Below the pieces are notes generated by a model that made no database searches, had not been told where the DNA came from, and saw only the letters and a program-made list of their open reading frames with translations. A stretch of 64,000 nucleotides of DNA from Chlorophyllum brunneum (taxonomy: Eukaryota > Basidiomycota > Agaricomycetes > Agaricales > Agaricaceae), in assembly GCA_963576785.1 (NCBI GenBank), contig OY756149.1:744001-808000 (forward strand), read 5' to 3'. Of the stretch, positions 4,236 through 62,893 are shown piece after piece (within the stretch, counting starts at the first letter, position 1; the number at the start of each line of letters is the position of its first letter). The position numbers and the translations under genes were made by a program.

Positions 4236-4238
4236 CTA

Positions 4239-13997: not shown

Positions 13998-15442
13998 ATT
14001 GCTTTTTGACTTGTTACCACCACTATCACTTTTCCACTTCCCTTTCCTTGTTGCACCATTCATTTCTCAGGCTCTCTCTCATGGGCCCATGTCTTTTCTG
14101 AGCCTTTGCTGGCTGTAGGGAGGCAGTCCGGATGGCAACATTAGTTGGTCGATGGGTGGCATACCCTTGGTGAAGGTGATTAAAGGTAGGCATATCTCCA
14201 CCATTCATTGGACTGACACCTCTATGTACAGATCAATGGGGTGGCCCCTTGGCAAAGGGCCTTAAAGGCTGGGATACTGGCCACCTTGCTTGCTTGCACT
14301 TGCTGGGTCATCAGTGGTGGTGGCTCTTCTATTAATTCAATGGATTTGCAGTCCCATATAGGGTTTGCATGTGGGTCTTTACCTCTGCTACAGGTCAAGT
14401 CCAGCTAGCATCTTGAGGCTAGGTTATCCTGGCTGATGACAGACATCCGGGCCCATCCCCAATTGTGCTTGCATATTAGTGGGGAGCATGCTAAAAAAAG
14501 CCACTCTATCATACCCGAAAGGGACTGAAAGGATAGAGGATGATAAAAGAGAGTATTGAGGTCATAACAAGCTGATCACAAGGACAGGCCACCCCCCACC
14601 AGTGTTGCCATGTTTGGACCCCTTCAAGGGTAGTGCCTGGTCATTAGTAGGGATCAGCCAAACTCTAGGGCAGTGGGTGGGTATGGGTTAACTCAGAGAA
14701 ACTCAGGTTGATTGGTGCCCATTCTGTGGAATGCTTAGTAATCTGTTTTGCAGGTTAGGTAATCCAATGTGAATACCACCCTGGTAGTGTCCCCTGCAAG
14801 ATGGAGATCCCCATTAGTATTAGCATACAGATCCATGCCCTAAGATAAGTTACCTCCTCTGGGAGTAGGGCATAGCAGAAGCGGCTGTAGGGGAACAGAA
14901 AGCTAGTCCAGGGTCGTGCCTTGGAGGGGGTGCCTAAGGTCTAGAAGTATCTGGAATTTACACTTCCCTGCCCAACTAGTAGACCATAGCAGGTTGTCTA
15001 CTGGGAGTATGCTGAAAAAAGCCACCTGGTTGCCGAGAAGAGGTGGCCCGGCTCGAGAGATCTAAATCCTCTATCAATAGGTCTCCACCAACAACAGAGT
15101 GTACCTATTTAAGTTGATACCATATAAGTGATCTAGATTTGGGATGGCAGCATGTGCAGTCAAGCAGTGGGATCCTGTCCATGTACCATATAGGAAGACT
15201 GCCTCAAGCAAACAGCAGGCTGGTCCTCAGGGATACTGCGCCTTCCTAGTAGTGGGGTGGTTGCCCAAGCTGAAAGCTTTACCTCTTAGGAGGGTGGAGC
15301 AAAGTCCCCGCAACATGGCTGGATATGACACCAATATGGGAGCCTGGAAACATACTGGGCATTCTATGAGCACATGATGTCTCAAGACTCTTGTCTCTGG
15401 GTTGCTAAGAGTTTTAAGCTTGCAAAGGGCTCTGTGTATGGA
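13998..15442 (+). repeat. Module X, copy 1 (non-coding, ~1.44 kb)
   Basis: Non-coding repeat, present in this window as 13998-15442 (+), 16910-18340 (-), 18341-19520 (+), 27529-27790 (-) and 61461-62893 (-). The 5' end is ATTGCTCCTTGAC (here with T for two C) and the 3' end follows AAAGGGCTCTGT. It holds two copies of the motif ATGCTGAAAAAAGCC about 530 bp apart and many G/C stems, so it looks like a structured RNA rather than a gene. Six-frame reading gives only short broken frames that differ between copies. It is preceded by LINE-A ORF2 and followed by LINE-B RNase H, forming an X::LINE-B chimera. I do not recognise its origin. Confidence 0.8.
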
Positions 15443-16257
15443 CTGCTGCCCAGATCTACCAATCAGGTCAGCATGTCTTCCAGATGAGACATGCGGCTGG
15501 CCAAGTGACAGCTCCTGATGCAGAGCTGTATGCTATCTGGATCGCAATTGGGAAGGCTACTAGCCTCCCTGACTGCGACTCCATTGTATTGTTCACTGAC
15601 TCCCTGGGTTCAGCTAGGAGAGCAGTGGACCCCTCTGTTTATTCTGGTCAGGCTCACTTGCTTGCCATGTGTAATGCTCTTATGGAGTGGTTTGGGGGTC
15701 ACCCCAAGCACTCCCTTCATATCTGGCACACTTACTCTTCAGAGAAGTGGGCCATTCATGGTACCATACACCAGTACTGTACCAAACTCCAGGTCTCTGC
15801 GGGTTCCTGTCTGCAAACCTCTCTTGACTCCCTTCACCAGAAGGTCATCAGATCCTGCCAGGACACCTGGATCACTTGATTCCAGGATCCTACTTACTTA
15901 GGTAGCCAGTTTATGGCTCTCGAAGGGCATAACGGTAAGCCTCTCCAGCCCACCTACCTCAATGGCAGCTTGTGGCTGCCTTATGCTGCAGCTGAGTCCA
16001 ACTCACTGTCAGCTTGCATGTGTAGGGTTATACTCAACCATGTGCCAATCAGGGCCTACAGGTCTTGGTTCTTCTAGAACAAACTATTCTAGTGTCTGTG
16101 CAGGGCTTCTTTCAAGTCTCATGTGCATATTCTTACCTCTTGTCCAAGGTTTGACTCCTCTAGGGGGTACCCTACTATACTGGGTGCCCTTGTCAAGTTC
16201 TTGAAGATGAACCCTCAGACATTTGCCTTCCCATCCATTCCTCAGGAAATTGGATAA
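15443..16257 (+). pseudogene. LINE-B ORF2 C-terminus (RNase H to stop), fused to X
   Basis: The LINE-B reading begins at the X junction in the RNase H domain (CCCAGATCTACC, equivalent to AAQIYWSG in other copies). It includes MRHAAGQVTAPDAELYAIWI (catalytic Glu) and VLFTDSLGSARRA (catalytic Asp), then the C-terminal half with YRSWFF and SSRGYP, ending at TAA 16255-16257. Stops interrupt at about 15877, 16075 and 16090. The first catalytic Asp of RNase H lies upstream of the junction and is absent. Confidence 0.85.
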
Positions 16258-16425
16258 CTGGCTCAGGGTAGGTGGGTTATTGTCCAGTACTGGAGGCCCC
16301 TGATGAAGACTTTGCAAACACTTTTGATGACCAATGAACAGACCTGAACCTTTTGGCTACTAGGTGTGGTGGAGACACCAATAGCCACACAAATGGTGCA
16401 GTCAATTACTCTGGCAAGAGTGACC
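16258..16425 (+). other. LINE-B 3' UTR, interrupted
   Basis: It matches the LINE-B 3' UTR at 55501 onward (CTGGCTCAGGGT, later CACAAATGGTGCAGTC and GTGACC). It stops at 16425, where a poly-T tract of a reversed LINE-A begins. The rest of the UTR is not found further right. Confidence 0.75.
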
Positions 16426-16909
16426 TTTTTTTTTTTTTTTTTTTTTTTAAAAATCAACATGTTTATAGTGGTGTGCAATCACAGTCCACCTGTATCTACT
16501 ATGACATGTAGGCTACAAAATAGATGGTATTTGAAGACGGGCTCTCCCCTGGCCAAACTAGACTACCTGTCAGTAGTCTGGGTGAATGGTCATGGAAACA
16601 CGCATAAATGTGTGAATTCTAGACAAGAATGATGAGCGACCCCTAGCCTCCCCTCCCTAGGGAGAGTATGTGTCAATTTGCAATTAACTCCTATACACAT
16701 CAGAGATGTGGGAAGCTAGCAGGGGCCGTGTCATGTTATCCAACTCCCGCAAGTGGTCTGTTGGACTTGAATGCAAATGCAGCAGGGTTGCACCCAAGAA
16801 AAGATACCAGCTGGTCAATAGAGACTGGCAGGCCATGATGTCTCTTGTACAAAGGACAAGAGCACAAGATATGAGTGCAGGTCTCCACACTCACAGCCAA
16901 TAGGCTCTA
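16426..16909 (-). mobile_element. LINE-A 3' tail, reversed, with poly-A (seen as poly-T)
   Basis: Poly-T at 16426-16448 is the poly-A tail on the minus strand. Then come the LINE-A 3' UTR and the last ~65 codons of ORF2 (LVNRDWQ on the plus strand is the reverse of the region encoding DQLV). A short internal deletion removes part of the Cys/His motif. The LINE sequence stops at 16909 and X copy 2 follows, so this is the LINE part of a reversed X::LINE-A chimera. Confidence 0.82.
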
Positions 16910-18340
16910 CCCATATATGGAGCCCCTTGCAGACAAACTCCTAGCAGCCCAGAGATAGGGGTCTTGAGACGACATGTGCCTGTAGAATGTCCAGCATATT
17001 CCAAGGCTCCCATATTGGTGTTGTATCTGGCCATATTGCAGGGACTTTGCCCCTCCCTCCTAAGAGGTAAAGCTTTCAGCTTGGGTGAACACTCTGCTAC
17101 TAAGAGAGTGCAATATCCCTGAGGACTAGCTTGCCATTTGCTTGAGGTGCTCTTCCTATATGGTGTATGGACAGGATTTCACCATAAGCTATGCACATTA
17201 CCACCCCAAATTCAGACTACTTACATGGTATCAACTTAAAATGGGTACACTCCATTGTTGATAGAGACCCATTGACAGAGAATCTAGACCTCTCAAGCTG
17301 TACTACTCCTTCTTGGTAACTGGGTGGCTTTTTTCAGTGCACTCCCAGTAAACAGCCTGCTATGGTCCACTAGTTTGGTAGGTAGAGGCTACGAAGGTGT
17401 ACCTCCAAGGCGCAATCCCTGGACTAGCTTCCCATTCCCCCATAGTAGCTTTTGCTATGCCCTACCCCCAGAGGAGGTAACTTGTCTTTGGGCATGGATC
17501 TGCATGCTAATACTGGTGGGGATCTCTATCTTGTAGGGAGCACTACCAGGGTGGTGTTCACATTGGATTACCTAAGCAACCCATGGAATGGATTACTTAA
17601 GCATTCCATGGAATGGGTGCCAATCAACCTGAGTTTTCCTGAATTGACCTGAACCTGCCCAGTGCCCTGGAGTTTGGCATATCCCTACTAATGACCAGGC
17701 ACTATTCCCAGAGGGGTTCCTGAAGGCATGGTGACACTGGTGGGGGGTGGCCTGTCCTTTTGGTTGGCTTGTTATCACTCCATTCCCCCTATTATTGTCC
17801 CCTATCCTTTTGGTCCCTTTCAGGTGCAATAGGGTGGCTTTTTTCAGCATGCTCCCCACCAATGTGCAAGCACAATTGGGGGTGGGCCTGGATGTCCATT
17901 GTCAGCTGGTATAGCCCAGCCTCAAGATACTAGCTAGACTGGACCTGCAGTAGGGGTTAAAACCACCATGCAAACCCTATATGGGACTGCAACACTATTG
18001 GATTAATAGAAGGGCCACCACCACTGGCAACCCAGCAAGTGCAAGTGAGCAAGGTGGCCAGTACCCCAGCCTTTAAGACCCTTTACCAAGGGGCCGCTCT
18101 GTTGATCTGTATATATAGATGTTAGTCCAATGAATAATGGGGATATACCTACCTTTAATTGCCTTTACCAAAGGTACGCCACCCATTGACCAAGTAACAT
18201 TGCCACACAGACCACCCCCCTACAGCCAGTGAAGGCTCAGAAAAGACCTAGGCCCATGAGAGAAAGCCCAGGAGATGAAAGGTGTGATGGAGAAAGGAAG
18301 TGGAAAAAGTGGTGGTAGTGGTAACAAGTCAAGGAGCAAT
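16910..18340 (-). repeat. Module X, copy 2 (reversed)
   Basis: Full-length X on the minus strand, from its 3' end (CCATATATGG, then AGCCCCTTGC) to its 5' end (GTCAAGGAGCAAT at 18328-18340). No gene is seen. It lies head to head with X copy 3, giving a large inverted repeat. The 255 bp next to the centre (about 18085-18340) could alternatively be an inverted piece of the copy-3 insertion. Confidence 0.8.
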
Positions 18341-19520
18341 GTCAGTAAAGGGTCTTAATGGCTGGGATACTGGCCACCTTGCTTACTTGTACTTGCTGGG
18401 TCACCAGTGGTGGTGGCCCTTCTATCAATCCAATGGGGTTGCAGTCCCATATAGGGTTTGCATGGTGGTTTTAACCCCTACTGCAGCTCAAGTCTGGCTA
18501 GCTTCTTGAGACTGGGTTATCCTGGCTGATGACAGATGTCCAGGCCTACCCCTAATCATACTTGCATGTTGGTGGGGAGTGGGCTGAAAAAAGCCACCCT
18601 ATCACACCCAAAAGGGACCAAAAGGATAAGGGATGGTAACAGGGGGTATAGAGGTGAAAACAAGCCAACTAAAAGGACAGGCCACCCCCCACCAGTGTCA
18701 CCATGCCTTCAGGAACCCCTCTGGGAATAGTGCCTGGTCATTAGTAGGGATATGCCAAACTCCAGGGCACTGGGCAGGTTCAGGTCAATTCAGGAAAACT
18801 CAGGTTGATTGGCACCCATTCCATGGAATGCTTAAGTAATCCATTCCATGGGTTGCTTAGGTAATGTGAACACCACCCTGGTAGTGCTCCCTACAAGATA
18901 GAGATCCCCACCAGTATTAGCATGCAGATCCATGCCCAAAGACAAGTTACCTCCTCTGGGGGTAGGGCATAGCAAAAGCTACTATGGGGGAATGGGAAGC
19001 TAGTCCAGGGGTTGCACCTTGGAGGTACACCTTTGTGGCCTCTGCCTGCCCAGCTAGTAGACCATAGCGGGCCATTTACTGGGAGTGCACTGAAAAAAGC
19101 TACCTAGTTACCAAAAAGGAGTGGCCTAGCTCAAGAGGTCTAGATCCTCTATCAATGGGTCTCTGTCAACAACGGAGTGTACCCATTTAAATTGATACTC
19201 CATAAGTAGTCTAGATTTGGGGTGGCAACATGTGCAGCTTATGGTGAGATCCTATCCATGTACCATATAGGAAGAGCACCTCAAGCGAACGGTAGGCCAG
19301 TCCTCAGGGATACCATGCTCTCTCAGTAGCAGGGTGTTCACCCAAGCTAAAGGCTTTACCTCTTAAGAGTGAGGGGCAAAGTCCCCGCAACATGGCTGGA
19401 TATGACACCAATATGGGAGCCTGGGAACATGCTGGGCATTCTACGGGCACATGACATCTCAAGACTCCCATCTTTGGGCCTCTAGGAGCTTTATTCCCTC
19501 AAGGGGCTCTGTATGCAGGT
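18341..19520 (+). repeat. Module X, copy 3 (5' truncated)
   Basis: Forward X lacking its first ~260 bp; it starts at the TAAAGGGTCTTAA motif and ends AAGGGGCTCTGTATGCAGGT. LINE-A ORF2 follows directly at 19521. Sequence agreement with copy 2 is visibly higher than with copies 1 and 5. Confidence 0.8.
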
Positions 19521-20620
19521 GCAGCATAAAGCTGCATTGTGGATCACTGGTGCATTCTGCACCAGCCCTACCGGAGGAGCTGAGGCCTTGGCTGGCCTCA
19601 TCCCCATCTATCTTCTTCTCAAGAAGCTGGCTACCCATGCCATCCATAGGGTGGCCATGCTTTCTGAGAATCACCCTGTACGTTCCAGTATGGGGCATCA
19701 CTATACTGCTGGGTGTGTTCCATACCCCAGATCTATCGCTCTCATGACCCCCACTCAGGTGGTCAAGGTCAAGGGGCCAGTCACAGAGGCAAACTCTCGT
19801 TTGCCAGAATTGACAGAGATGTTTGAGCCATTTGCACTTGAAGCATCACCAGGTTCTTGTCTCCTGGACTGCTATGCAGCCCAGGTGACTTACAAGACAT
19901 ATGATACCTTGCTCAGTGGAAACCCAACAGGTTGTCAAGTGGATTTGCTCAACAATACTCTTTGTGGGTATTGTGAGGACAGGCAGGTTGTCTATGCAGC
20001 AATAGATGTGAGTCTGCCATTGATTGGGGACTACCAGGTAGTTTTGGCTGCCCACATTTATAGGGGGATGCATCTGCTTTGTGCATTGTGTCACCTAGCT
20101 AGCAAGGATACAGCCCCAGATACTGAACTATTTGCCATTTGTATGGTTTTGGGAACTGCTGTGGCAGTTTCTGAGGCTGTATATATCACAGTCTTTATGG
20201 ACTTGATTGGTTCAGCCAAGCAAGCTCTTGACCCATCCATACATTCTGGCCAGGGATATTCCCTGGCTGTTTGTCGTCTCTTGTTGGAGTGGTTCAGGGA
20301 TCATCCTGGCTGTTCCCTCACTTTCTGGTCTGTTCTGTCCTTGGCAAAATGGTCCATTCATTAGGAGGTGCATTTATATGCCACCAAGCTTCAAGTCACC
20401 ACTAGATGTAGTCTAGCAACATCTATCGACTCACTGCATAAACTTAACATAGCAACTGTTCAGAAGGCCTGGAAGGTTACCTTCCAGGACTCCTCTTATC
20501 ATGGTTCTAACTTCCTTGCTCTCAAGGATAGTAAGAACAAAGTCTTACAGCTAATGTACCTCCATAGGAGGCCTTGGCTTCCTTCCTTTCCCTCTCAGTC
20601 CATTGTGATGAGAGCAAATC
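19521..20620 (+). pseudogene. LINE-A ORF2 part (RT end to RNase H), split by gypsy-1
   Basis: The frame begins at the X junction with HKAALWITGAFCTSPTGGAE, the region after the RT. It continues through RNase H (VVYAAIDVSLPLIGDY first Asp; DTELFAI Glu; VFMDLIGSAKQ Asp) and breaks at a TAG near 20362. It is cut at 20620 by the gypsy-1 LTR and resumes at 26984 after the duplicated AAATC. The fused X is upstream. Confidence 0.88.
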
Positions 20621-20925
20621 TGTTACGACCTTAGTCTAGGACTCAGGTTACAAGTCTTTGGATAAAGACAAGGAAATAGAGAAGAGAGTAAGGGATGATA
20701 CGATTGGTAAAGTATAAGGAATACATCAAGTATTACTACACTTTATATACTAGTGGTAAGAGCTAAGAATAAAGGAACAGGGTAAAGGAGTCATAGAGAC
20801 AAGTAAGATGAGTCAGAAGAGGTACAGCCATAAGGGATGAAACAAGGAGGTAAAACAGATACATAAGAATGATGAATGTGACGGGCACATGATAGGAATG
20901 TACTATCTATCTATAGTTCATAACA
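20621..20925 (-). repeat. 3' LTR of gypsy-1
   Basis: Ends TGTTA and TAACA. The adjacent bases on the element's sense strand (rich in A and G, ending GGGAGGTAT) form the polypurine tract at 20926-20941. Confidence 0.94.
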
Positions 20926-20989
20926 ATACCTCCCTTTTTACTTTCATAACCCCATGAAATATCGTAGTCTACTTGTCATCTTGTTCTTT

Positions 20990-21948
20990 GTGTAAGGCAT
21001 TAACAAGTTGACGTTTGGTAGGGCCAATCATCAGGGTTCCTGATTTGCATCAACATCCAATCCAGAAGGGGGTGTGGTCTTGGCCTCCTCTGAAGAGGGC
21101 TATGGTGCATCCTTTGAATGTAGCTGTATCGTTTGTTTCAGCTGCCATGAGGTTGTGTATTATCTCTTCCCAGTAGTTTTCTTCGAACTGTCCTCCATCT
21201 TTGAGTGTGAGATAAGATGGGGGTGGGTTGGATATTGTTGGTTTGGGTGGTAGGTTCATATCAGGCAGTTGTATAAGGAGGTGGTCTACTTCATCTCACA
21301 TATCTGGTTCCATTAGATGGTTGGGGACTGATTTGTCGATTCCCTCCATTCCTTCATCTAACCAGTTCTGTTCATCATCCTTGTGGTAGGGCAGTTTGTT
21401 GGGTAAGGTAGTGGGGATGTATGAGTCGAGATCCATTAGTCTCTGCGCAAGTCTATAGGTGGGATTGTTGCTCGAGTCGGTGAGGTGATTGAGTCTTTCG
21501 CCTGTCATGATTAAGGCACTTTGGATGCATTTCTTTGCATCAGAGTGCACTAATACGTTGAGGTCGGTGGCTGCTTTATCTAATAACTCCTTCATAAGTT
21601 CATGTTTCCCAGTTGACATGGCGGCAGGAAGGGCTCTGGTAGTGGTGATGAGTAGAATGTGGCTCAGGGCTTTGGCTTGGATTGAGAGATTGTTGATGGC
21701 ATGGGTGATGTATGTGAGTCATTTGGTTGTGGCAGTATAGTGTTCGATTTGATCTTTGGTGGACTGGGCATTGAGGAGATTGTTAAGTTCTTGTTCGAAT
21801 TCTGTGTCATTGGCTGGGAAAGGGGTGGGCTTGCATTCAGCATGCATGGTGTGTTGTGAAGGTAATCGGCAAAGTTTAGGATGCAGTGGATACAGCATGA
21901 GGTGCATTGAGTGTAGTGATCTCTTGTAACATGAGGTTTGTTGTTCAT
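20990..21948 (-). pseudogene. gypsy-1 ORF3 remnant (extra ORF downstream of pol)
   Basis: Between pol and the 3' LTR the minus strand encodes a broken protein homologous to the intact 278-aa ORF3 of gypsy-2. The best match is the C-terminal part PPSYLTLKDGG, then ENYWEEIIHNLMAAETNDTA and HTPFWIG, against GYNTLKSEGEKDNDYWKEIV and HAPLWIG. An upstream small ORF starts MNNKPHVTRDHYTQ. Similarity of ORF3 between gypsy-1 and gypsy-2 is much lower than that of their integrases. The function is unknown, and no membrane segment is visible. Confidence 0.7.
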
Positions 21949-21960
21949 AATTGTCGCTTT

Positions 21961-24900
21961 TTACCCCCCCCTTTTTATAGGTTTTGTCCTCGAAATCTTG
22001 TCTAAGAATTCTTGAACTGTCTTCTTAGCATTTCCTAACTCTGACTCATTCTCCCATGTGTCTTCTTCGGAGGTATACTCTTTCCAGTGTACTAGGAATT
22101 GATTTTGTCGTCCTCTTGTGCAGTGTCCTTGGATTTCATCTACCTCATATTGTTCTTCATCATTGATGATCTCAGGCATCGGTGGTGGTGGGGTGCACCG
22201 GCTGTCAAACTCGGGTTTTCGATAGGGGGAGAGGAGTCTGCTGTTAAACACATCATGTATTGCCCATGTTTCAGATAATTCCAATTGGTAGCTTGTTTTG
22301 CCTATTTTTGTTTTTATCCTGAATAGTCCATATTGTTTGTGATCCAGCTTTTTGGTTGGTCTTGTTGTCCTGATATTACTTGCTTCAAGCCAAACTTGTT
22401 CTCCTGGGGTGTACTCATGTTCTGGCTTAGTGCTGTTGCATTTCTCCATTTGTTTCTGACTGCATTGTAACATCTTTGTCACTTCTTGTTGCATGTTTTG
22501 TAACTCCTGTATTCGTTCCGTGATTGCGGGTGCTTTGGTGATACTCATTATATCTCCTTTCCAAGGGTGTCGTCCATAAATTATTTCGAATGGTGAATAT
22601 CCAGTGGCTGTGTGGATTTTGTCATTGTACTGGAATTCTGCTGTGGCTAGCCATTTTTTCCAATTGTCTTGAGCATAGTTTATTACATTTCTGAGGTATG
22701 TTTCAACCTCCTGGTTGATGTGCTCTGTTTGACTGTCAGTTTGTGGATGGTATGCCGTGGATAAGTTTTGCTGGATTCCTGTTGCTCGGCATAGTTCTGC
22801 CATGAATTTGGATGTGAATTGTGGGCCTCTGTCACTGATAATTCTGCAGGGTATTCCATGTGTTCTCCATATGTCATCTCGATAGATATCTCCTAGCTTC
22901 TCAGATGTTAAGGTGGTGTTGACTGCATGCAATCTGATCATTTTGCTGAAACAATCGACTATGACAAGTATTGTGTCATATCCTTCTGATTCTGGTAGTG
23001 GTCCTATCATGTCAATTGATATCTCCTCCCAAGGTTCCACTGGTGTTGGTAGTGGATGGAGATGTGTTGTTGGTCTTGTTCAGAGTATTTTATTTCATTG
23101 GCATGCTTCACATCCCCTGATGTATTATTTGACATTGTTGCGCATCTGGGGCCACCAATAGCTCCGTTTAAGGAGTTCAATCATTCAATATTGTCCTGGA
23201 TGTCCTACATCTGTTTCGTTGTGGTGTTGTCGTAGTATTTCTTGTCATATTTGGTTGTTGGGTAGAACATATATCCTTCCTTCAAACATCAGTACCCCAT
23301 CTGTTTCCTATATCTCCTTTGGTCACTTCTCTTTTTCTTTTAGCCATTGTGTTTCCCTTCTTGTCTCCTTTCGTAGTTGGTGTTTCAGATCTTCTTCTCC
23401 TAAGATTTCCCAGATTTGTCGGATTGTGGTGATCATACTGTCATCAAATAAGTGGTCAGGTAGTAAGGTGATGTCAGTGTTGTCTCGAGTAGTGTCTGTT
23501 TTTGTTAGTCTTGATAAGATGTCAGCTTTTGTGTTGGTTTTTCCAGGGATATGTTTCAGTGTGTAATGGTATTCTTGTAGCTCCATCTGCTACCTCACTT
23601 GTCATCCTGTGAGTTGCTGTGGTTTTCGGAAGTATTCTAGGTTTTTGTGATCAGTCCATATTTTGAAAGGTTCATCTGTGTCAAGTAGATATTGTCTCCA
23701 GGTCTTGATTGCTTCTCAAATGGCAAGTAACTCTTTATCATAGATTTGATAGTTTCATTCTGCAGGTGTCATTGTTCTTGAATAGAATGCGATCAGGTGC
23801 CAGTGTTCTTCTTGTTTTTGTGATAATACTGCTCCTACTCCATATCCCAATGCATCCACTTCTACCCTGTATTGACCCTTGTCCTGTGGCATTGCTAGTA
23901 CCAGTTTGCTTGTGATTTTTTCTTTGATCCTTTCGAAGGCTTGCTGCTGTCGTTTCTTCCATACCCATTGTGTGTCTTTTTTCTTCAACTCATGTAATGG
24001 GGCTGCTATGTTGCTAAAGTCGTGAATGAATCATCTGTAGAAGTTCGCAAATCCTAGGAATTTTTCAACATCTTTTAGGGATTTGGGTGTTGGCCATTCT
24101 TTCACCACTTTCACTTTCTTCTCCTCCATTTTAACGCTGTCTTGTCCAACTACAAATCCTAGTATAGGTATTTCTTTTGCATCAAATATGCATTTCGATC
24201 TTTTGAAATATAGCTGGTGTTTTGCTGTAATGTCAAGAAATCATTTTGTCCTGTCTTCAAGTTCCTGTTGTGTGGTCCAGGTATGACAAAATCATCCATG
24301 TAGTTGATGACTGCTTCTTCATGTAACATTTCCCAAAAGACCATGTTCATCATCCTTTGGAATGTTGCAGGCGAGTTACTCATTCCAAAAAACATGACTG
24401 TTGGTTCGAATGATCCATTGTTCATTACAAATGCTGCTTTCCATTCATCACCTTCTCTTATCCTAATGTTATTGTATCCCCAGATGATGTCGAGTTTGTT
24501 AAAGACTTTCGCATTCTTGAGTTTATTGATAACTTTGCTTATGAGTGGAAGTGGTGTTTTGTCTTTGATCATATGTTTATTTAGCTTCTTGTAGTCTTGT
24601 ACCAGTTGTTTGGTTCCATCCTTTTTGGGTATGAAGAAGCATGGTGTGGTATAGGGGGATTGTGATGGTCAAATTTGTCCTGAGGCAATATTTTTGTCAA
24701 GGAATTTTTGTAGTTCTTGTTTCTCTGTTAATGTCATTGGATAGACCTTGGACTGTAATACCAGTGGTGCGTCTTCTGTCAGGTTTATTTTGTGATCCCA
24801 TATCATATGTTCTGGTAGTTTGTCGAAGTTCTTCTTGTTGAACAGGTGCATATATTGCTGCAGGTATGTCGGTAGGTCTTCTGGGTTTGTTTGATTGGTT

Positions 24901-25341
24901 TTATTTTCCTCTAAGTACTCTTTTACCGTGCGTATTCTTTCGTTGAACCGTATATCATTGTAGTGTGTGGTGCAATCCTTTGGACATCTATTGAAGTGTA
25001 CTATGTTGTTTGTCCAATCAATTTCTGGGTTGTGCTTGACTAGCCAGTCATGTCCGAGATATAAGTCCGCACTTTCCAGTTGTGTTACCATTGCTTAATA
25101 CCAGTTGTGCTGTATCTGTTATTTCTCCTTTCTTGTTTTCGGTTCCGTTGGCATTGATTACTTGTATTGGGGTTTCGAGGGGTTTGGTTATGATCTGTTC
25201 TTCTTTTACTATCCTCTGTGCTATGCACGTATGTGTACATCTGGAATCCACCAGTGTAGTGATTTGTTTGGGTCCTTTCTTCGTTCTGATTGTTGAGTTG
25301 AGGAGAAGTTCGCACATTGAGTTTTGTTTTTGTGGGATCAC
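21961..25341 (-). pseudogene. pol: gypsy-1 pol (protease, RT, RNase H, integrase, chromodomain)
   Basis: Protease: TTLVDSRCTHTC, where gypsy-2 and gypsy-3 have DSGCTHT, so the catalytic Gly is lost. RT: KLDIIWGYNNIRIREGDEWK and NYMDDFVIPG (YMDD at 24291-24302, intact). Integrase: HHNETDVGHPGQY-type zinc region, DMIGPLPESEGYD, SDRGPQF and TEHINQEVE (D,D,E). A C-terminal chromodomain spans about 22170-21990 (HWKEYTSEEDTWENESEL). Stops include a TGA at 23602-23604 where gypsy-2 has CGA. The frame ends at TAA 21961-21963. Confidence 0.92.
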
Positions 25342-25400
25342 ATATCATCTATTGTGAAATAAAACAGAAACTCTAGGTTTATTGGCTCATGGGTTTGCAC

Positions 25401-26585
25401 CTACTTGGAGCCTTCGACAAAATCCTCTTTTGTCTCTTCTTTTATCTCTTCGGTAACCTCCCTGATGTGCACTTTCTTTGGTGCTTTACAATTCTTCGAG
25501 ATGTGGCTTTGTTTGCCACAGTTATAGCACGTTATCTTGGTGTATGCTATCTTTGTCTTCTTGCGGCAGTATTTGGCAATGTGCCCATAGAGGTTACAGT
25601 TAAAACACCTTGGTTTGCCATTCTGATCGGTATCTGTCCTCTGTCTACCAATTTCCATTGGTTGTCCTCTGCCTCCACAGGTGACTCCTGTGCTTGTTTT
25701 GACATCTCCTCGTGTGATGTCCGTTGTTTCATATTCCTGTCCTACTGCAAGGATAGTATTTCTCCATTTGCTGTATGTATCTGGGATTGAGGTTGCCGGG
25801 TAGCCTACAATAGTTCAGATAATATCTGCTCTGGTGTGTCATTTGAGGAGGAATATGGCATGTGCATTGTCTGTTCCTGCTTGGGTTTTCAATGCTTTGA
25901 ACTCTATTAAGAAGTCTGCAGTGTTCCTCTTTCCCTGTTTGAACAACTCAATTTCCCCTTCTGCTATTGCTTTTCTATTCCCCAAGGAGAATGTGGCTAC
26001 CATCTCCTTTGCGAAGTTATCAAATGCCGGTGTTTTTTTGTCTTGGATCATTTGTAATTTGGTGTTGGCATAGGGACCTGTGAGTCCCCTTTTCATTCGA
26101 GCTAATATTCCAATTATCTTTTGTTCATTATTGTCGATTTTGTTGAAGAGTGTGCATAAGGACATCGCTCTCCACCAATCATCAAACTTGGTTCTATCTC
26201 CATTGAAATATCCTGGTTCTGGGGCTAGGTTCTTTGGGAAGTTGATTTCATCGGCCATCTCTGATTCTGTCTCTGGTTCGCTATATTCGTTTTTGTGGGT
26301 CTTGGCGACTTCTATGTTGGATGTGGCTTTGGCAATTTCTGTATCGAATGGGGTCTCAGTGACTTCTATGTCAAATGTGGTCTTGGCAACTTTTGTGTTG
26401 AATAGGGTCTCGAAAAGAGCTGTGTCTTCTTCTATAATGTGGTTGGATTTCTGCCATTTAAGGCCTTCAGGGATTTCTGGTTCTGTTCGTCATTTGGATC
26501 TGGTGGTTACTGGTGATCCCTGGATATCTGTTGGTCTTGGAGCTCTTGGTCTTCTTGGTGTTCTCGATGAGCTACTGCTGCCCAT
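25401..26585 (-). pseudogene. gag: gypsy-1 gag
   Basis: Starts at the ATG at 26585 (MGSSSSSRTP, against MSSSSSSRTP in gypsy-2). The capsid-like domain is YFNGDRTKFDDWWRAMSL onward, and the two C-terminal CCHC knuckles are CFNCNLYGHIAKYC and CYNCGKQSHISKNC. TGA stops at 26490-26492 and 25815-25817 replace CGA codons present in gypsy-2. Confidence 0.9.
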
Positions 26586-26665
26586 ATACTGTCTTCCTAG
26601 TCGGAGGCTATTATTCCAAGCCTAGCTATGAATAGTGGCACCTCTCTTGCAAGGTGAGTCAAATA

Positions 26666-26677
26666 ACACTTTACCAA
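26666..26677 (-). promoter_or_regulatory. gypsy-1 self-priming primer-binding site
   Basis: Next to the 5' LTR the sense strand reads TTTGGTAAAGTGT. Twelve of these bases (TTGGTAAAGTGT) are perfectly complementary to ACACTTTACCAA within the LTR itself (26762-26773 on the minus strand), close to where transcription should start. Tf1/sushi elements prime in this way without a tRNA. Confidence 0.75.
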
Positions 26678-26678
26678 A

Positions 26679-26983
26679 TGTTACGACCTTAGTCTAGGAC
26701 TCAGGTTGCAAGTCTTTGGATAAAGACAAGGAAATAGAGAAGAGAGTAAGGGATGATGCGATTGGTAAAGTGTAAGGAATACATCAAGTATTACTACACT
26801 TTATATACTAGTGGTAAGAGCTAAGAATAAAGGAACAGGGTAAAGGAGTCATAGAGACAAGTAAGATGAGTCAGAAGAGGTACAGCCATAAGGGATGAAA
26901 CAAGGAGGTAAAACAGATACATAAGAATGATGAATGTGACAGGCGCATGATAGGAATGTACTGTCTATCTATAGTTCATAACA
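26679..26983 (-). repeat. 5' LTR of gypsy-1
   Basis: 305 bp, nearly identical to 20621-20925. On the sense strand a TATATAA box lies about 35 bp before the sequence that pairs with the primer site. Confidence 0.94.
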
Positions 26984-27528
26984 AAATCATGCCATCCTTG
27001 GGCATGCTCCAACCAGCAAGTACTGCTCCCGGTTCCATCCCTTAGAGCCTATTGGCTGCAAGTGTGGGGCTCCTTTGGAGACCTGCACTCATATCTTGTA
27101 CTCTTGTCCATTGTACAAGAGACATTATGGCCTGCCAGTCTCTATTGACCAGCTGGTGGCTTTTCTTAAGCACAACCCTTCTGCATTCACATTTAAGGCC
27201 AACACACTGCTTGCGGGAGTTGGATAACATGCTGCAGTCCCTGCTAGCTTCCCACATCTTTGACGTGTGTAGAAGTTAATTGTGAATTGACACATACTCT
27301 CCTTAGAGAGGGGAGGCTAGGAGTTGCTCATCATTTTGGTCTAGAATTCACATGTCCATGTGTGTCTCCATGACTGTTCACCCAGACCACCTGTTGGTGG
27401 TCTAGTTTGGCCAGGGGAGAGCCAATCTTCATATATCACTACTTTGTAACCTACATGTCATAGTAGATACAGGTGGACTGTGATTGCGCACCATCTTAAA
27501 CATGTTGATTTAAAAAAAAAAAAAAAAA
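26984..27528 (+). pseudogene. LINE-A ORF2 C-terminus, 3' UTR and poly-A (continues 19521-20620)
   Basis: After the AAATC duplication the LINE-A frame resumes (CHPWACSN region, then PLEPIGCKCGAPLETCTHIL, YSCPLYKRHYGLP and LLAGVG) and stops at 27223-27225. The 3' UTR (27226-27511) contains the hairpin AGACCACCTGTTGGTGGTCT and ends CATGTTGATTT before poly-A at 27512-27528. Confidence 0.88.
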
Positions 27529-27790
27529 GACCCTTGGTAAAGGGGCCACATTGTCAATCTATTTGTATAGGTATCAGTCAGATGAATGGTGGGGATATGC
27601 CTACCTTGAATTGCCTTTACCAAGGGCATGCCACCCATTGACTGACTAATGTTGCCACCCAGACCACCCCCCTACAGCCAGCAAAGGCTCAGAAAATACA
27701 CAGGCCCATGAGAGAGCCCGAGAAATGAATGGTGTGATGAGGAAAGGGAAGTGGAAAAGTGATGGTGGTGGTAACAAGTCAAGGAGCAAT
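27529..27790 (-). repeat. Module X, copy 4 (first ~260 bp of X only, reversed)
   Basis: It matches the 5' end of X on the minus strand up to GTCAAGGAGCAAT. It directly follows the LINE-A poly-A. Its first bases read GACCCTTGGTAAAGGGG, where X otherwise reads GACCCTTTACCAAGGGG, so the core CCCTTTACCAAGGG is reversed in place. No gene. Confidence 0.75.
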
Positions 27791-31845: not shown

Positions 31846-31846
31846 T

Positions 31847-31858
31847 TTGGTAAAGTGT
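31847..31858 (+). promoter_or_regulatory. gypsy-3 self-priming primer-binding site
   Basis: TTGGTAAAGTGT, one base after the LTR, is perfectly complementary to ACACTTTACCAA at 31751-31762, about 34 bp downstream of the TATA start. This geometry matches Tf1/sushi self-priming, in which the folded 5' end of the mRNA serves as primer. Confidence 0.78.
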
Positions 31859-35183: not shown

Positions 35184-35284
35184 GGTGTATTGTAGAGATA
35201 GTTGGCAAAGTCAAGGGTGAAGTGAATACCACGAGTGATGCGATGAGTGTAGTGGTTACTTGAGATGCGAGGTTTGCTGTTCAT
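35078..35284 (-). CDS. Small 68-aa ORF overlapping the pol stop of gypsy-2
   Basis: It starts MNSKPRISSNHYTHRITRGI. Its ATG overlaps the pol stop codon as ATGA (35281-35284), a layout known from coupled termination-reinitiation in other elements and viruses. The same ORF with the same overlap is in gypsy-3 (43135-43341: MNNRSRIPSNHYTQSITRCI) and, more diverged, in gypsy-1 (starting at 21948). It could be a leader that carries ribosomes to ORF3, whose ATG is about 100 nt downstream in another frame. Whether it is translated is unknown. Confidence 0.5.
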   Translation of the reverse strand: MNSKPRISSNHYTHRITRGIHFTLDFANYLYNTPCPPNANLPRTPTSQNLKNSSQKGPTRKKSWKEKP

Positions 35285-40126: not shown

Positions 40127-40127
40127 A

Positions 40128-40427
40128 TGTTACGACCTTAGTCTCTGACTCAGGTTGCAAGCCTTTGGATAAAGGAAAGGAAGTAGAGAAGGGAAGAAGG
40201 GATGATACGATTGGTAAAGTGTAAGGAATACATCAAGTATTACTACACTTTATATACTAGTGGTAGAGGCTAATAATAAGGGAGTCGAGTAACGGAGTCA
40301 TAGGAGACGGGTAGAACGAGTCAGGTAGGAGGCACAGCCTCTAGGGTGATACAGGAGATGAAACAAGTATGAGAGTACATGAGGTAGCGGGCGCATGATG
40401 GGAATGAACGGTCTATGATTCGTAACA
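40128..40427 (-). repeat. 5' LTR of gypsy-2
   Basis: 300 bp, two differences from the 3' LTR. It is followed by the AATCA duplication and the resumed gypsy-3 pol. Confidence 0.95.
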
Positions 40428-43138
40428 AATCAGACCATCACAATCCCCCTACGCCACCCCATGTTTCTTTATACCAAAAAAGGACGGAACAAAACGCCTG
40501 GTACAGGATTATAAAAAGCTGAATGAACACACCATCAAGGATAAAATGCCACTGCCACTCATAGGTGAAGTTCTAGACCGATTAAAGGATGCAAAGGTGT
40601 TCAACAAGCTCGATATCATTTGGGGATATAACAACGTCAGGATCAGAGAAGGGGATGAATGGAAGGCAGTGTTTGTAACCAACAACGGATTATTCGAACC
40701 TACGGTCATGTTCTTTGGGATGAGCAATTCACCGGCAACCTTTCAGAGAATGATAAACATGGTATTTCGGGAAATGTTACATGAGGGAACACTTGTCAAC
40801 TACATGGACAATTTTGTCATTCCAGGAACCACACAGGAAGAACTCGAGGAAAGAACAACACGGTTCTTAGACATTGCAGCCAAGCACCAGCTCTACTTCA
40901 AGCGGTCAAAATGTGTGTTCGACGCAAAGGAAATACCCATACTAGGCTTTATAGTGGGACAAGGCAGCGTTAAAATGGAGGAAGAAAAGGTGAAAGCAGT
41001 AAGAGAATGGCCAACACCCAAATCCGTGAAAGACATCGAAAAATTCCTGGGTTTTGCAAACTTCTACCGACGATTCATACAAGACTTCAGTAACATAGCA
41101 ACACCCCTACACGAGCTGAAGAAGAAAGATGCACAATGGTCATGGTCAGAACGACAACAACAGGCATTTGAGAAGATCAAAGAAAAGATCACAAGCGAAC
41201 CAGTACTAGCAATGCCTCAAGACAAAGGACAATACAGGGTAGAAGTGGATGCATTGGGATACGGAGTAGGAGTGGTATTATTACAAAACCAGAATGACCA
41301 GTGGCACCCAATCACCTTTCACTCGAGAACAATGATACCGGCAGAACAAAACTACCAAATCTACGACAAAGAACTACTAGCAATCCAAGAAGTGATCAAA
41401 ACGTGGAGACAATACCTACTCGATGCCGACAAACCATTCGAGATATGGACGGACCACAAGAACTTAGAATACTTCAGGAAACCGCAACAACTCATAGGAT
41501 GACAGGCAAGATGGCAACTGGAATTACAGGAATATCGCTACACACTAAAACACATACCCGGAAAGACAAACACGAAAGCAGATGTGCTATCAAGACTAGC
41601 AAAAATGGACACAACCAGAGACAACACAAATATCATGCTATTATCCGACTACTTATTCGATAACACTATCACTGAGATCAGGCAAATTTGGGAAATATCG
41701 GGAGAAGAAGACCTGAAACACCGATTACGAAAGGAGCAAAGAAGAGAAACACAGTGGCTAAGAGAAAAGGAGAAACGACCAGAGGAGATATGGGAAACTG
41801 ATGGATTACCCATATTTGAAGGAAGAATATATGTGCTACCAAACGCCAACGAAATACTCCAACAACACCACGACAAAACGGACATAGGACACCTGGGACA
41901 GCACAGAATGATCGAACTCCTCAAAAGGACATATTGGTGGCCACAAATGTGCAATGATGTTAAACGATACATCAAGGGATGCGACACATGTCAGCAAAAC
42001 AAAATACTCCGGACACGACCTACCACACATCTCCATCCATTACCGATACCCATGGGAAGAAATATCAATCGACATGATAGGACCACTGCCAGAATCAGAC
42101 GGATATGACGCGATACTTGTCATTGTTGATTGTTTCAGCAAAATGATCAGACTACATGCAGTTAACACCACCCTATCATCCGAAGAGTTAGGAGATATTT
42201 ATCGTGACAATATATGGAGGCAACACGGGATACCACACAGGATCATCAGTGACAGAGGCCCACAATTTGCATCAAAATTCATGGCAGAACTTTGCAGAGC
42301 AACCGGCACCCAACATAACCTATCCACAGCATACCATCCACAAACAGATGGTCAGACAGAGCGCATCAACCAGGAGGTTGAGGCATACCTCAGAAATGTA
42401 ATCAACCATGCACAGGACAACTGGAAGAAATGGCTCAGCACAGCAGAATTCCAGTATAACGATAAAACACATAGTGCCACTGGACATTCACTGTTCCAGA
42501 TAGTATACGGACGACATCCCTGGAAAGGGGATATCTCAAACGAGGTCAAGGCACCTGCGATCACGGAGCAAATACAGGAGTTACAGGGTATGCGCCAAGA
42601 AACGATCAAAATGCTACAACAAAACCAGACACAGATGGAGAAACGGAACAGCACAAAGCCAGAACACGAATATAGGGCAGGAGACCAAGTTTGGCTTGAA
42701 GCAGATAATATTAGAATGACATGGCCGACAAGAAAACTTGATCACAGGAGATACGGACCATTCCGAGTAAAAGAAAAAATAGGCAAAACAAGCTACCGAC
42801 TGGAACTACCCGAAACATGGGCAATACATGACGTGTTTAATAGCAGACTCCTCTCCCCCTATCACAAACCCGAGTATGACAGCCAGCGTACTCCACCACC
42901 ACCAATCCCTGAGATAATCAATGATGAGGAACATTACAAGGTAGATGAAGTCCGAGGACACCACACAAGGGGAAAACAAAAACAGTACCTAATACACTGG
43001 AAAGGGTATACATCTGAAGAAGATACATGGGAAAATGAAGCAAATCTGGAAAACGCCAAAGAATCAGTACAGGAGTTTATGAGCAAGATTTCGAGGACGA
43101 AACCTATAAAAAGGGGAGGTAAAAAGCAGCAATTATGA
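40428..43138 (+). pseudogene. pol: gypsy-3 pol, second part (RT, RNase H, integrase, chromodomain)
   Basis: Continues the RT after gypsy-2 (QSPYATPCFFIPKKDGTK). The active site reads NYMDNFVIPG at 40801-40812: the second catalytic Asp is Asn, a GAT to AAT change at a CpG. A TGA at 41500-41502 replaces CGA of gypsy-2. An 8-bp deletion near 42050 shifts the frame between PLPIP and WEEISIDMIG. Integrase (SDRGPQF, TERINQEVE) and chromodomain (YLIHWKGYTSEEDTWENE) follow. The stop TGA at 43136-43138 overlaps the next ATG. Confidence 0.93.
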
Positions 43139-50731: not shown

Positions 50732-50738
50732 ACACCTC

Positions 50739-58260: not shown

Positions 58261-59400
58261 ATATCATGGTTCTCTCCCTCTTTTTGGGAGGCGAGACCTT
58301 GAACCTCATGAATGTTTACTCTGATTCAGAGTGCACTGCGATTTGGTTCCTTTCGGACTGGGCTGCTACATTGCCCAAGCATATCTATATGGGCAGCAAT
58401 TTTAATTGCCATTCTGAGTTGTGGGACCCTAATTGTAGCTCCCACTCAGGCACCTCGCAGTCCCTGATCTCCATCGGGACAGACATTGGCCTAGACCTCA
58501 CCCTTCTGGTCGAGCCTGGGCCTACTCACATTCCACACAATGAGGATCTCCAGCCATCAGTCATCAATCTTGCATCTGACCTGTCTATCTCGCATAGGCC
58601 TAGGTTGGATTACTCCCTTAGGGGTCCATCAGACCACATTCCATTGGTTCTGATTCTTCCAGTCATTCCCACTATTGTGGAGACTCACAGGAAAATCCTG
58701 CCACATAACAGTGGTGAAGAGGTAGTGCTCTTCCTCACTGATGTTATCCGGGACCTCCGTAAAGTAGCTAGACTTCCAGAACCTACTACCACTGATGAGG
58801 TCAAAGCTGCAGTTCATGCTGTGGCAGAGGCCTTCTCCACTGCATGGGAAGCCCATGCAGTGGATATCATGATCACTCGCCGCTCTAAGCCCTGGTGGAA
58901 CCAGGAATGCTGCAAAACCTTTGGGAGGTATCATGAGACTTGTTCTCACGATGACTAGTCTAATTTTAGACATGCTAAGAAGTGTGCTAAATGCAACTTC
59001 TTTGATGCTTACATCGAGGAGATTGCTTCTACTAACAAGTGACTGTGGGACCTTATGGAATAGGTCCAAAAGCAGAAACCTCCACCCTGCAAGGCTATCC
59101 AGTACAATGGAGAGCCATGTCATGCACTCCCGGATCTCTGGGATGCACTCCACAATACCTACAACTTGGCCTCTGGCTGAGCTGTAGATATTTCTGTTCT
59201 TGATCCGCTGCCAAGTCTTTTGGCTAGGGAGTAGGTCCATTTCTCAGCCTTAGAGCTGATGAATGCCCTGAGTGTATGCTCAGGTGTGTTTGCCCCGGGG
59301 CCAGACTATGTAACGTGGACCCACCTCAAAGAGATTGCCGAGGACCCCAATGTCCTTCGGTTGTTCATTGGGATAGCTAATGCCTGCATGCAGGTGGGTT
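58261..59400 (+). pseudogene. LINE-A copy 5 ORF2 part (endonuclease to RT start)
   Basis: Forward ORF2 starting at DIMVLSLFLGGETLNLMNVY. The endonuclease motif reads MGSNFNCHSELWDP, with Asn in place of the catalytic Asp of MGGDFNC. GPSDHIPL is kept. Stops lie at 58956, 59040, 59061, 59178 and 59232. The copy is head to head with LINE-A copy 4. It is interrupted at 59401 by the SINE-like element and continues at 60672-60785 (GYWPSHFKESLSVIIPKPGK). Confidence 0.9.
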
Positions 59401-60671
59401 GGTCGGCCTAATGGTTGAGTGGTTTGGGTGTAGGCTTAATTCCTACCAGGCTGCTTGGCTAGAAGGTCCTGGGTTTGAAACCTGTGGGGGAAGATTTATT
59501 CTCAACCATGGGAAGTACTAGTGCACAAGGCATAGTTGCTTAGCAATATTCCCAGATGATACCAGATTAGGTTGTGTGGTCCTGTTTGGCATTGTTTGGT
59601 GCTGTCACAGGCTAGCATGGGAGTTGTCACACCCAGCCACATAGCAAGTCACAGTGTGACCCAGCTGTGTGCATCACCCAAGTCCAATATTGGCCAAAGA
59701 CAGTGGTGCCCTAATACCGGGGCCTAACTTGGGAGGATTACCTAAGCCACTGCTGGAGATAGGGCATTATAAGAAGGGGAATGTCATGATAACAGTCCGA
59801 CTCAGGGTATGCTGAAAAAAGCTGCCGAGATAGGATACCCCTCCTGGGCTGCTTCGGCATAGTTCTGGTAGTTAGTAGACATAACCCAATCTTCAGATTG
59901 AGGATGCTGACTAAGTTGGCTTAAAATAACCTCAGGACCAATCTGATAGTGGTGTCTGCAAGGTGTAGATCTCAGACAGTTAAGTACGGGGATCCGGGCC
60001 ATAAGGCATACCAAACCGGCTGCTGAGGAACGGAAAGCAACTCCGGGGTAGTGCCTGGGTGAAGTTGTGGGCCGTAGTAGGTGATGTACTGGGGTATGCT
60101 GAAAAAAGCTGCCAGTTATCAGAGAATGCTCACCTGGCTCGAGAGGACTAAATCCTACATCGGTTGGCCTGGTACAGGAAAAATAGCCAGGTTCCAGGTC
60201 AAGTTGATTCCACATCGTCATTGGCTAAGGCTGGTAGTAAGAGACCCCTCAAGGGGCTCTGTAGATGGGTATGGCTTGCCAGTCTCTATTGACCAGCTTG
60301 TTAGTTTTCTTAAATGCAATCCTCTAGCATTTGTATTTAAGTCCAACAGACTGTTTGCGGGAGTTGGATAATGCAACGCGGCCCCTGCTAGCTTCCCGCA
60401 TCTCTGACATGTGTAGAAGTTAATTGTGAATTGACACATACCCTCCTTATGGAGGGGAGGCTAGGGGTCGCTCACTTCTTTGGTCTAGGATTCATGCATC
60501 CGTGCGTGTTTCCACGACCGTTCACCCAGACCGCCTATTGGCAGTCTAGTTTGGCCAGGGGAGAGCCTATCTTCGTAAACTACTCTTTGTACTCTGCATG
60601 TCATAGTAGATACAGGTGGACTGCAATCACGCACCACCTTAAACATGTTGATTTAAAAAAAAAAAAAAAAA
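59401..60671 (+). mobile_element. SINE-like element with tRNA-like head, X-like body and LINE-A tail
   Basis: Flanked by a 15-bp target duplication with two mismatches (GCATGCAGGTGGGTT at 59386-59400; GCATGCGGGTAGGTT at 60672-60686). The head has a pol III A box (TGGTTGAGTGG, 59412-59422) and B box (GGTTTGAAACC, 59472-59482), spaced as in a tRNA with a long variable arm (Leu/Ser type). The body carries ATGCTGAAAAAAGCTGCC twice (near 59808 and 60096) and GGCTCGAGAGG, both shared with module X, and ends AAGGGGCTCTGTAGATGGGT. From 60271 it is LINE-A: the last ~30 codons, the 3' UTR and poly-A. At 1.27 kb it is long for a SINE. Confidence 0.8.
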
Positions 60672-60785
60672 GCATGCGGGTAGGTTATTGGCCATCCCAT
60701 TTCAAGGAGAGCTTGTCAGTGATCATACCGAAGCCAGGCAAGCCGTCCTACTCAATGCCCAAGGTGTTCAGGCCCATTGTGCTCC
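60672..60785 (+). pseudogene. LINE-A copy 5, short RT segment after the SINE
   Basis: VGYWPSHFKESLSVIIPKPG, then SMPKVFRPIVLL, the RT region just downstream of the SINE insertion site. It is cut at 60785 by poly-T of the reversed chimera. Confidence 0.85.
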
Positions 60786-61460
60786 TTTTTTTTTTTTTTT
60801 TTTTTTTGATCATGGCCTAAGGCCGATTTATTATGCGGCGCTCGAACACAGCCCGCGGCCGGAATACAAACAAGTAAACAGGCGGGTATCTACGGAGAAC
60901 GTGGTAACTACGCCCTACCAAGCAAGAGTACCGTTGCCCAAAGCCAACGGTAGGAGGAATTGCGTCCTACTCCCGAGCCCAGAGGGCGAGGGGAGTGGAC
61001 GCCAGAGGAGGTGAGTGGGCAGGGAGGTCCCCCAACCAGCGACCCAGTCCGAAGACCAGGCCTGGTCAGTAGGTGTTAATTCACTGTAAATGCCCGGCGG
61101 TGGAGGCACACCCAGTTACTAGCCCAGCTAAGCCCCAACCCCCCTTTACTAAGACCCAGTCCCCCAGCCACGGTCACCCTTGCCAGAGTAATTGACTGCA
61201 CCATTTGTGTGGCTATCGGCATCTTCACCACACCTAGTCACTGTAGGGTCCAGGTCCGTTCATCGGTCATCGGAACTGTCGCCAGGTCTTCGCCAGGGGT
61301 TACTGGTGCCGGACAATAACCCACCTACCCTAAGCCAGTTATCCAATTCCCTAGGGAATGGATGGGAAGGCGAACGCCTGGGGGTTCGCTTTCAAGAACT
61401 TGACAAGGGCACCCGGCGTAGCAGGGTACCCCCGAGAGGAATCAAACCGACTGCAGTTGG
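60786..61460 (-). mobile_element. LINE-B 3' tail, reversed, part of an X::LINE-B chimera
   Basis: Poly-T 60786-60807, LINE-B 3' UTR to about 61347, then the last ~38 codons of ORF2 (SSRGYPATPGALVKFLKANP), stopping at 61460 where X copy 5 begins. CpG sites are well preserved compared with the LINE-B tails at 46.4 and 55.6 kb. Confidence 0.88.
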
Positions 61461-62893
61461 TCCCGCGTACGGAGCCCCTTGAGGGAATAAAGCTCCTAGA
61501 GGCCCAGAAATGGGGGTCTTGAGACGTTGTGTGCCCGTAGAATGCCCAGCATGTTCCCAGGCTCCCATATTGGTGTCGCATCCGGCCATGTTGCAGGGAC
61601 TTTGCCCCTCCCTCCTAAGAGGTAAAGCCTTTAGCTTGGGCGAACACCCCACTACTGAGAGAGCGCGGTATCCCTGAGGACCGGCCCGCCGTTCGCTTGA
61701 GGCATCCTTCCTATATGGTGCACGGACGGGATCTCACCGCTTGACTGCGCACGCCGCCACCCCAAAACCAGACCTCTCGCATGGTAACAACTCAAATGGG
61801 TACACCCCGATCTTCACGGGGACCCACCGACAGAGGATTTTGACCTCTCGAGCCGGGCCGCTCCTTCTCGGTAACCGGGCAGCTTTTTTCAGCATGCTCC
61901 CAGTAAACGGCCCGCTACGGTCCACTAGTTGGGCAGGCAGAGGCCACGAAGGCGTACCTCCAAGGCGCAACCCCTGGACTAGCTTCCCGTTCCCCCGCAG
62001 CCGCTTTTGCTATGCCCTACCCCCAGAGGAGGTGACTTGTCTTTGGGTGCGGATCCGCGTGCTAATACTGGCGGGGATCTCTGTCTCGCAGGGGGCGCTA
62101 CCAGGGTGGTGTTCACATTGGATTACCTAAGCAACCCGTGGAACGGATTACTTAAGCATTCCACGGAACAGGCGCCAATCAACCCGAGTTTCCCCAAGTC
62201 AACCCGAACCCGCCTGTGCCCTGGAGTTTGGCGTATCCCTACTAACGACCAGGTGCTACCCCCAGAGGGGTTCCCAAAGGCATGGCGACACTGGTGGGGG
62301 GTGGCCTGTCCTTTTGGTCGGCTTGTTATCACTCCGTTCCCCCTATTATCGTCCCCTATCCTTTCGGTCCCTTTCGGGTGCGACAGGGCGGCTTTTTTCA
62401 GCACGCTCCCCACCGACGTGCACGCACGATTGGGGGTGGGCCTGGATGTCCGTCGTCAGCTGGTATAGCCCAGCCTCGAGATACTAGCCAGACTTGACCT
62501 GCAGTAGAGGTAAAAACCCACATGCGAACCCTATACGGGACTGCAAGCCCATCTAATTAGTAGAAGGGCCGCCACCACTGACGACCAGCGAGTGCAAGCG
62601 AGCGAGGTGGCCAGTATCCCAGCCTTTAAGACCCTTTACCAAGGGGCCGCCTCGTCGACCTGTGTGTATAGGCGTCAGTCAGATGAACGGTGGGGATATA
62701 CCCACCTTTAATCGCCTTTACCAAGGGCGCGCCGCCCATCGACCAAGTAACGTTGCCACACGGACCGCCCCCCTACAGCCAGCGAAGGCTCAGAAAAGAC
62801 CCAGGCCCATGAGAGAGAGCCCAGGAGATGAAAGGTGCGATGGGGAAAGGAAGTGGAAAAAGTGATGGTGGTGGTAACAAGTCAAGGAGCGAT
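61461..62893 (-). repeat. Module X, copy 5 (full length, CpG-rich, best preserved)
   Basis: 1433 bp on the minus strand, from the X 3' end (TCCCGCGTACGGAGCCCCTT) to the 5' end (GTCAAGGAGCGAT). It keeps CpG where the other copies have TG or CA and so is nearest to the original sequence. Visible features are two GCTGAAAAAAGC motifs, hairpins such as CCCCGTGAAGATCGGGG, and a duplicated CCTTGGTAAAGG hairpin. No long ORF. Its 5' end abuts a forward LINE-A tail at 62894. Confidence 0.85.

Follow-up and report, generated by a model that had tools for sequence, protein, structure and literature searches.

Here we report a family of chimeric retroelements in the genome of the basidiomycete Chlorophyllum brunneum, found in a stretch of 64,000 nt (contig OY756149.1, positions 744,001 to 808,000; hereafter the window). 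Two related sequence modules, X and Y, are each joined by a fixed 3' end to the 3' parts of long interspersed nuclear elements (LINEs), which begin at variable places. Target-site duplications (TSDs) enclose module and LINE part as one unit, and the motif at which the LINE sequence is broken depends on the module. The chimeras probably arose when the LINE machinery switched templates to the 3' end of parasite RNAs that resemble short interspersed nuclear elements (SINEs).

Modules, junctions and target-site duplications

Module X measures 1,432 nt. The copy at 61461-62893 served as reference and was compared by BLAST with the window and with the genome (38.9 Mb, 14 contigs), as the initial annotation of the window had proposed; the genome-wide search returned at least 45 matches, which is a lower bound because the best 40 of 151 candidates were scored and the window copy at 13998 lies outside them. 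The matches are clustered, mostly in one stretch per contig (e.g. C11, 761-909 kb), and from their position and content these clusters appear to resemble centromeres. The X stretches in the window match the reference copy at 80-85% identity along as much as 1.4 kb, far more than chance would give.

X copies share the 5' end AT(C/T)GCT, although not the exact 13-mer that had been given for it, as the copy at 13998 reads ATTGCTTTTTGAC. This start resembles that of the LINEs themselves: ATCGCTCCTT in X and ATCGCTTCTT in LINE-A and LINE-B are identical at 9 of 10 positions (motif ATCGCT(T/C)CTT). At the 3' end, the proposed GGGGCTC was confirmed and is followed by 10 nt (CGTACGCGGG) instead of about 11; it is not universal, since a second X type, to which the copy at 13998 with its AGGGCTC belongs, has the variant end CGTGTACGGG. 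Across loci the ends GTACGCGGG and GTACATGGG and, for the second type, GTGTACGGG were seen, with point changes present. A 16-base 3' motif, CTCAAGGGGCTCYGTA, occurs 105 times in the genome (at most one mismatch) and never in the reversed reading. CG to TG/CA differences between copies are frequent by eye at the CpG sites of this end, as might result from cytosine methylation or a process like repeat-induced point mutation.

The loci examined contain 43 X stretches. Taking as junctions those that reach within 15 nt of the fixed 3' end gave 35, all of which continue into LINE sequence; the other eight stop earlier, at locus edges, at later insertions or deletions (by eye) or, in one case (L015), at a deviant joint discussed below. 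The 5' end is likewise mostly complete: 30 of these 35 copies start at X nt 1-7, and of the 39 copies with the fixed 3' end in a ranked match list, where long matches are favoured, 30 extend to within 6 nt of the 5' end. The longest stop-free stretch in sense direction is 110 codons, and the window gave no Rfam match at gathering scores. The 5' part of the chimeras thus appears to be a full-length copy of a non-coding RNA, as in the MINE elements of Magnaporthe. Two copies (L026 101-795 and L047) are joined at a repeated motif around TGCTGAAAAAAGC and, as seen in L026, lack approximately nt 511-993, which looks like a deletion between direct repeats.

Module Y, at 59400-60269 of the window (approximately 870 nt), was absent from the initial annotation. 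It has at least 44 matches in the genome, three of them short pieces, and some lie outside the X clusters (C6:42386, C8:1936975, C1:4575441, C12:1605841). Of 10 Y copies, ARAGORN recognised a tRNA in four, and the two obtained in detail are tRNA-Leu(TAA) at nt 4-94; in the window it found none, so that the window's own Y copy went unrecognised. The body of Y is related to X in blocks (76% identity over 91 nt, 79% over 61 nt and 96% over 23 nt), which include the repeated TGCTGAAAAAAGC motif, and 22 of the 24 terminal nucleotides of the 3' end are identical to those of X. With its tRNA-like 5' head, Y has one feature of tRNA-derived SINEs; the other, a fixed LINE-derived or A-rich 3' tail, is not present, as the LINE start varies by copy. 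The two starts suggest that transcription of X begins in the manner of a LINE and that of Y like that of a tRNA gene, from an RNA polymerase III promoter.

Joint positions were read on rulers for LINE-A (approximately 6,241 bp) and LINE-B (approximately 6,508 bp). The LINE-A protein contains an RVT_1 domain, and its named relatives among the ten best matches are from Candolleomyces and Cyclocybe (Agaricales), with 50-54% identity. In the 35 copies of the loci examined, X joints span LINE-A nt 1470 to 5893 and LINE-B nt 365 to 5856. Together with four junctions read in short additional sequences, there are 39 X junctions at 31 distinct donor strings (4 + 4 nt), or 30 by LINE coordinate, which bears out the claims that two LINE families share X and that the LINE begins at different places. 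Neither of the observations named beforehand as speaking against this arrangement, X ends at many positions or a single LINE joint position, was made, the deviant copy L015 being the one exception to the former. Y joints vary in the same way among LINE-A, LINE-B and a third LINE-like type (25 read, of which 24 were used, at 23 donor strings or 22 coordinates). The third type is the partner in 4 of 25 Y ends (L050, L051, L052 and L062, compared with L016, L020 and L039), and these are the 3' ends of the four Y copies away from the X clusters. For both modules the 3' part is a 5'-truncated LINE in the same orientation, and all 64 module ends read (39 X, 25 Y) run on into LINE-type sequence.

Several LINE-A sites were hit repeatedly (4350 in three copies, 4390, 5590, 5767 and 5771) and may be hot spots; the copies at such sites are mostly not nearest neighbours by X sequence, the exception being L021 with L020 (93%). 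Two X pairs, one of a window copy with L009 and the other of L030 with L031, are 99% identical with the same joint and different flanks, and were probably re-copied whole as units, so that not every copy is a fresh jump.

A downstream LINE tail was found for 24 X rows, and 12 further rows did not reach one. In 15 of the 24, the order is TSD, X, LINE, poly(A), TSD, with duplications of approximately 12-18 nt and at most two mismatches, and one more has a duplication of 10 nt. One copy of the duplicated sequence follows the poly(A) and the other abuts the X 5' end; Y units are enclosed likewise in 4 of 6 rows with a tail. Duplications of 10-20 bp around the entire unit are also a feature of MINE. 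Because they bracket X, LINE and poly(A) together, X arrived with the LINE in a single retrotransposition event, as its 5' part.

Breakpoint motifs and the origin of the joint

The LINE sequence at the breakpoint differs between the modules (in the motifs, Y denotes a pyrimidine and N any base). The three LINE bases before the X joint are YYY in 27 of 31 strings (background 20%) and CTY in 18 of 31 (background 5%), whereas YGN precedes the joint of module Y in 21 of 23 (background 12%). A G at position -2 was found at 0/31 X and 21/23 Y strings (Fisher p = 5e-13, with donor strings taken as independent, although two string pairs, one X and one Y, share a LINE coordinate). On the same terms the difference holds within LINE-A (0/25 vs 9/9, p = 2e-8) and within LINE-B (0/6 vs 10/11, p = 6e-4). 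Eight junction boundaries were re-anchored by hand; a first count with single-copy rulers showed the same trend (CTY directly before and a pyrimidine directly after the joint at 10/24 X and 0/8 Y sites). In none of the 54 strings is the first LINE base after the joint, as read from most LINE copies, a G. The motif lies in the part of the LINE that is lost, and since the same LINE donors yield two motifs, the partner RNA or its ribonucleoprotein (RNP) seems to play a part. By local folding, X donor sites were nominally more structured downstream (-19.4 versus -16.5 kcal/mol, background standard deviation 4.7, n = 23); Y donor sites were not (n = 7). Bare 5'-truncated LINEs with TSDs numbered approximately four by eye, too few to serve as a motif control.

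Template switching by the LINE machinery is, in our judgement, the probable source of these joints. X and Y would be non-coding, SINE-like parasite RNAs that have no tail of their own and move joined at the 3' end to a 5'-truncated LINE. The LINE reverse transcriptase would start at the LINE poly(A) and a genomic nick, copy part of the LINE RNA, leave it at a preferred site and go on at the 3'-terminal GGG of X or Y; the module RNA would then be copied to its 5' end and the entire piece sealed in with a TSD. Switching of this kind during target-primed reverse transcription accounts for fixed module 3' ends, variable LINE ends, full 5' ends and duplications. It presupposes that the joint arises in reverse transcription rather than by prior RNA ligation, that there are module RNAs with GGG as their 3' end, and that these RNAs are parasitic and not cellular. 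The initial annotation had already taken the joints for a jump of the LINE reverse transcriptase resembling the WEIRD/MINE chimeras (PMC2104539); the whole-unit TSDs and the LINE 5' ends that lack X support this.

Five observations weigh against template switching as described. The donor motif depends on the acceptor, which pausing of the reverse transcriptase alone does not predict. Pairing between module 3' end and donor site was not above background in duplex energies (23 X and 7 Y sites). The X copy L015 joins LINE-A at X nt 1391 and not at the fixed 3' end. Eight of the 24 tailed X rows are without a TSD of their own (two with exchanged TSDs, six with none); for two rows of this kind, both in the window, the tail located is 8-12 kb distant and does not belong to them. 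Finally, no solo X or Y, as a possible RNA source, occurs among the 64 module ends. A more specific form of the hypothesis, which we advance tentatively, holds that X and Y form a class of retro-parasites that have no tail and acquire a new LINE tail when they transpose, and that the parasite RNA or its RNP picks the site where the LINE RNA is abandoned or cleaved (acceptor-guided RNA recombination).

Considerably less likely than template switching is that a LINE RNA is first cleaved and its new 5' end ligated to X or Y RNA, the fusion then being retrotransposed normally. The outcome in DNA would be identical, the donor sites carry motifs of the sort that an endonuclease might leave, these motifs are tied to the partner RNA, and ligation has been named as an alternative for U6/LINE-1 chimeras (PMC13174262). 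It would, however, require that the same LINE RNAs be cut by a different rule for each partner RNA, and no enzyme was identified.

The remaining explanations were rejected. That X is a LINE 5' untranslated region and the variable joints are internal deletions is very improbable: X does carry the LINE 5' terminal motif, but 15 LINE-B places share one 5' start of their own without X and three LINE-A copies another, which means that X is not their leader. X was not found at the 5' ends of the LINE-A and LINE-B copies examined, nor ahead of open reading frame 1 in full-length LINEs; moreover, it joins two LINE families, and Y bears a tRNA-like head in its place. Even less credible is that an X exon is spliced, in cis or in trans, to cryptic acceptors in the LINEs, a process that would suit a fixed upstream end and recurrent LINE sites, as AG directly precedes the joint in 0/31 X and 1/23 Y strings. 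Equally remote is independent insertion of X, as a DNA transposon or SINE, into older LINEs: dense nesting at these loci could mimic fusions, but the duplications surround X, LINE and poly(A) and not X alone.

Organisation of the window

Five X stretches were found in the window, the number given in the initial annotation, and they probably represent four copies. The first (13998-15442, plus strand) belongs to the second X type, ends GTGTATGGA, has a full 5' end and is joined to a LINE-B fragment that begins at LINE-B nt 5163 (15443-16425, plus strand). The second lies on the minus strand (16910-18340), with its full 5' end at 18340 and its 3' end ATATATGGG at 16910, and is joined to the 3' part of LINE-A from nt 5772, at 16909 (16451-16909, minus strand; tail poly(T) 16426-16448). 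The third (18345-19519, plus strand) starts at X nt 255, extends to the fixed 3' end and continues into a LINE-A part that begins at nt 4617 (19520-20620, plus strand; start given earlier as 19521). Its missing 5' part appears to have been cut off by insertion of the neighbouring unit and is probably the displaced stretch at 27527-27790 (minus strand), which holds X nt 1-266 only. The two stretches have 12 nt of X in common, and a LINE-A tail is present at each break; the region 16426-27790 probably contains one X copy split by a nested insertion and then by inversion.

The reference copy (61462-62893, minus strand) has its 5' end at 62893 and its 3' GGG at 61462, where it is joined to the last approximately 653 nt of LINE-B, from nt approximately 5856 (60808-61461, minus strand; tail poly(T) 60786-60807). 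This unit (60786-62893) and L009 2001-4107 are inverted X-LINE-B units with 99.4% identical X and, by eye, exchanged TSDs, which suggests an inversion by recombination between the two. The Y unit comprises the module (59400-60269, plus strand), with a tRNA-like head (the tRNA being read in other Y copies) and a body and 3' end related to X, and a LINE-A 3' part (60270-60654, plus strand) with poly(A) at 60655-60671; its TSD of 15 nt with two mismatches lies at 59386-59400 and 60672-60686. The window further contains a Ty3-type long terminal repeat (LTR) element with integrase and chromodomain at 35281-38691 and a second reverse transcriptase/RNase H stretch at 40426-41502. Ty3-type LTR elements are frequent in fungal centromeres.

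Comparison with known systems

The closest known system is MINE of Magnaporthe grisea, chimeras of the approximately 1.1-kb WEIRD RNA with the LINE MGL (Gogvadze et al. 2007; PMC2104539). In both fungi, the end of a full-length non-coding RNA, putative in C. brunneum, is fused at many different sites to a LINE that lacks its 5' portion, with TSDs of 10-20 bp, recurrent donor sites and no solo copy found or reported (PMC2104539). The original study regarded WEIRD as an RNA of the host cell and ascribed the donor consensus GCC*A/U to stalling of the reverse transcriptase at difficult places of the LINE RNA (PMC2104539). This consensus was not found at X or Y joints, where the motif depends on the module, and we regard it as particular to that species rather than as defining the family. 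C. brunneum differs further in having two related modules with a common 3' end, of which Y has a tRNA-like head and X starts like a LINE, and two LINE families as partners, with the third LINE-like type at 4 of 25 Y ends.

Non-autonomous elements derived from LINEs, such as RIME/ingi, share a short 5' end with their LINE and have a fixed 3' part; X too shares a short 5' end with its LINE, whereas its LINE part is variable. U6 and Alu also exist alone, whereas no solo copy of X or Y was seen. The mammalian U6/LINE-1 and Alu/LINE-1 chimeras (PMC13174262) are similar in that an RNA copy lies 5' of a truncated LINE, mostly in the same orientation and with TSDs, and Alu/LINE-1 demonstrates that a SINE can serve as the 5' partner (PMC13174262). 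A limited literature search gave no match for a pair of related modules with different heads and a module-dependent donor motif, and a search on fungal SINEs listed nothing close.

The kind of chimera is therefore already known, from MINE in Magnaporthe and from U6 and Alu with LINE-1 in mammals; new here are the second module Y, the LINE-like start of X and the module-dependent breakpoint motif. That two related RNAs are joined to the same LINEs with different breakpoint motifs suggests that the partner matters, and the two motifs make pausing, guiding and RNA ligation distinguishable by test. The comparison also suggests that WEIRD-like RNAs can form a family of parasites rather than being unusual RNAs of the cell, and it points to a way in which a SINE head might come by its first LINE tail.

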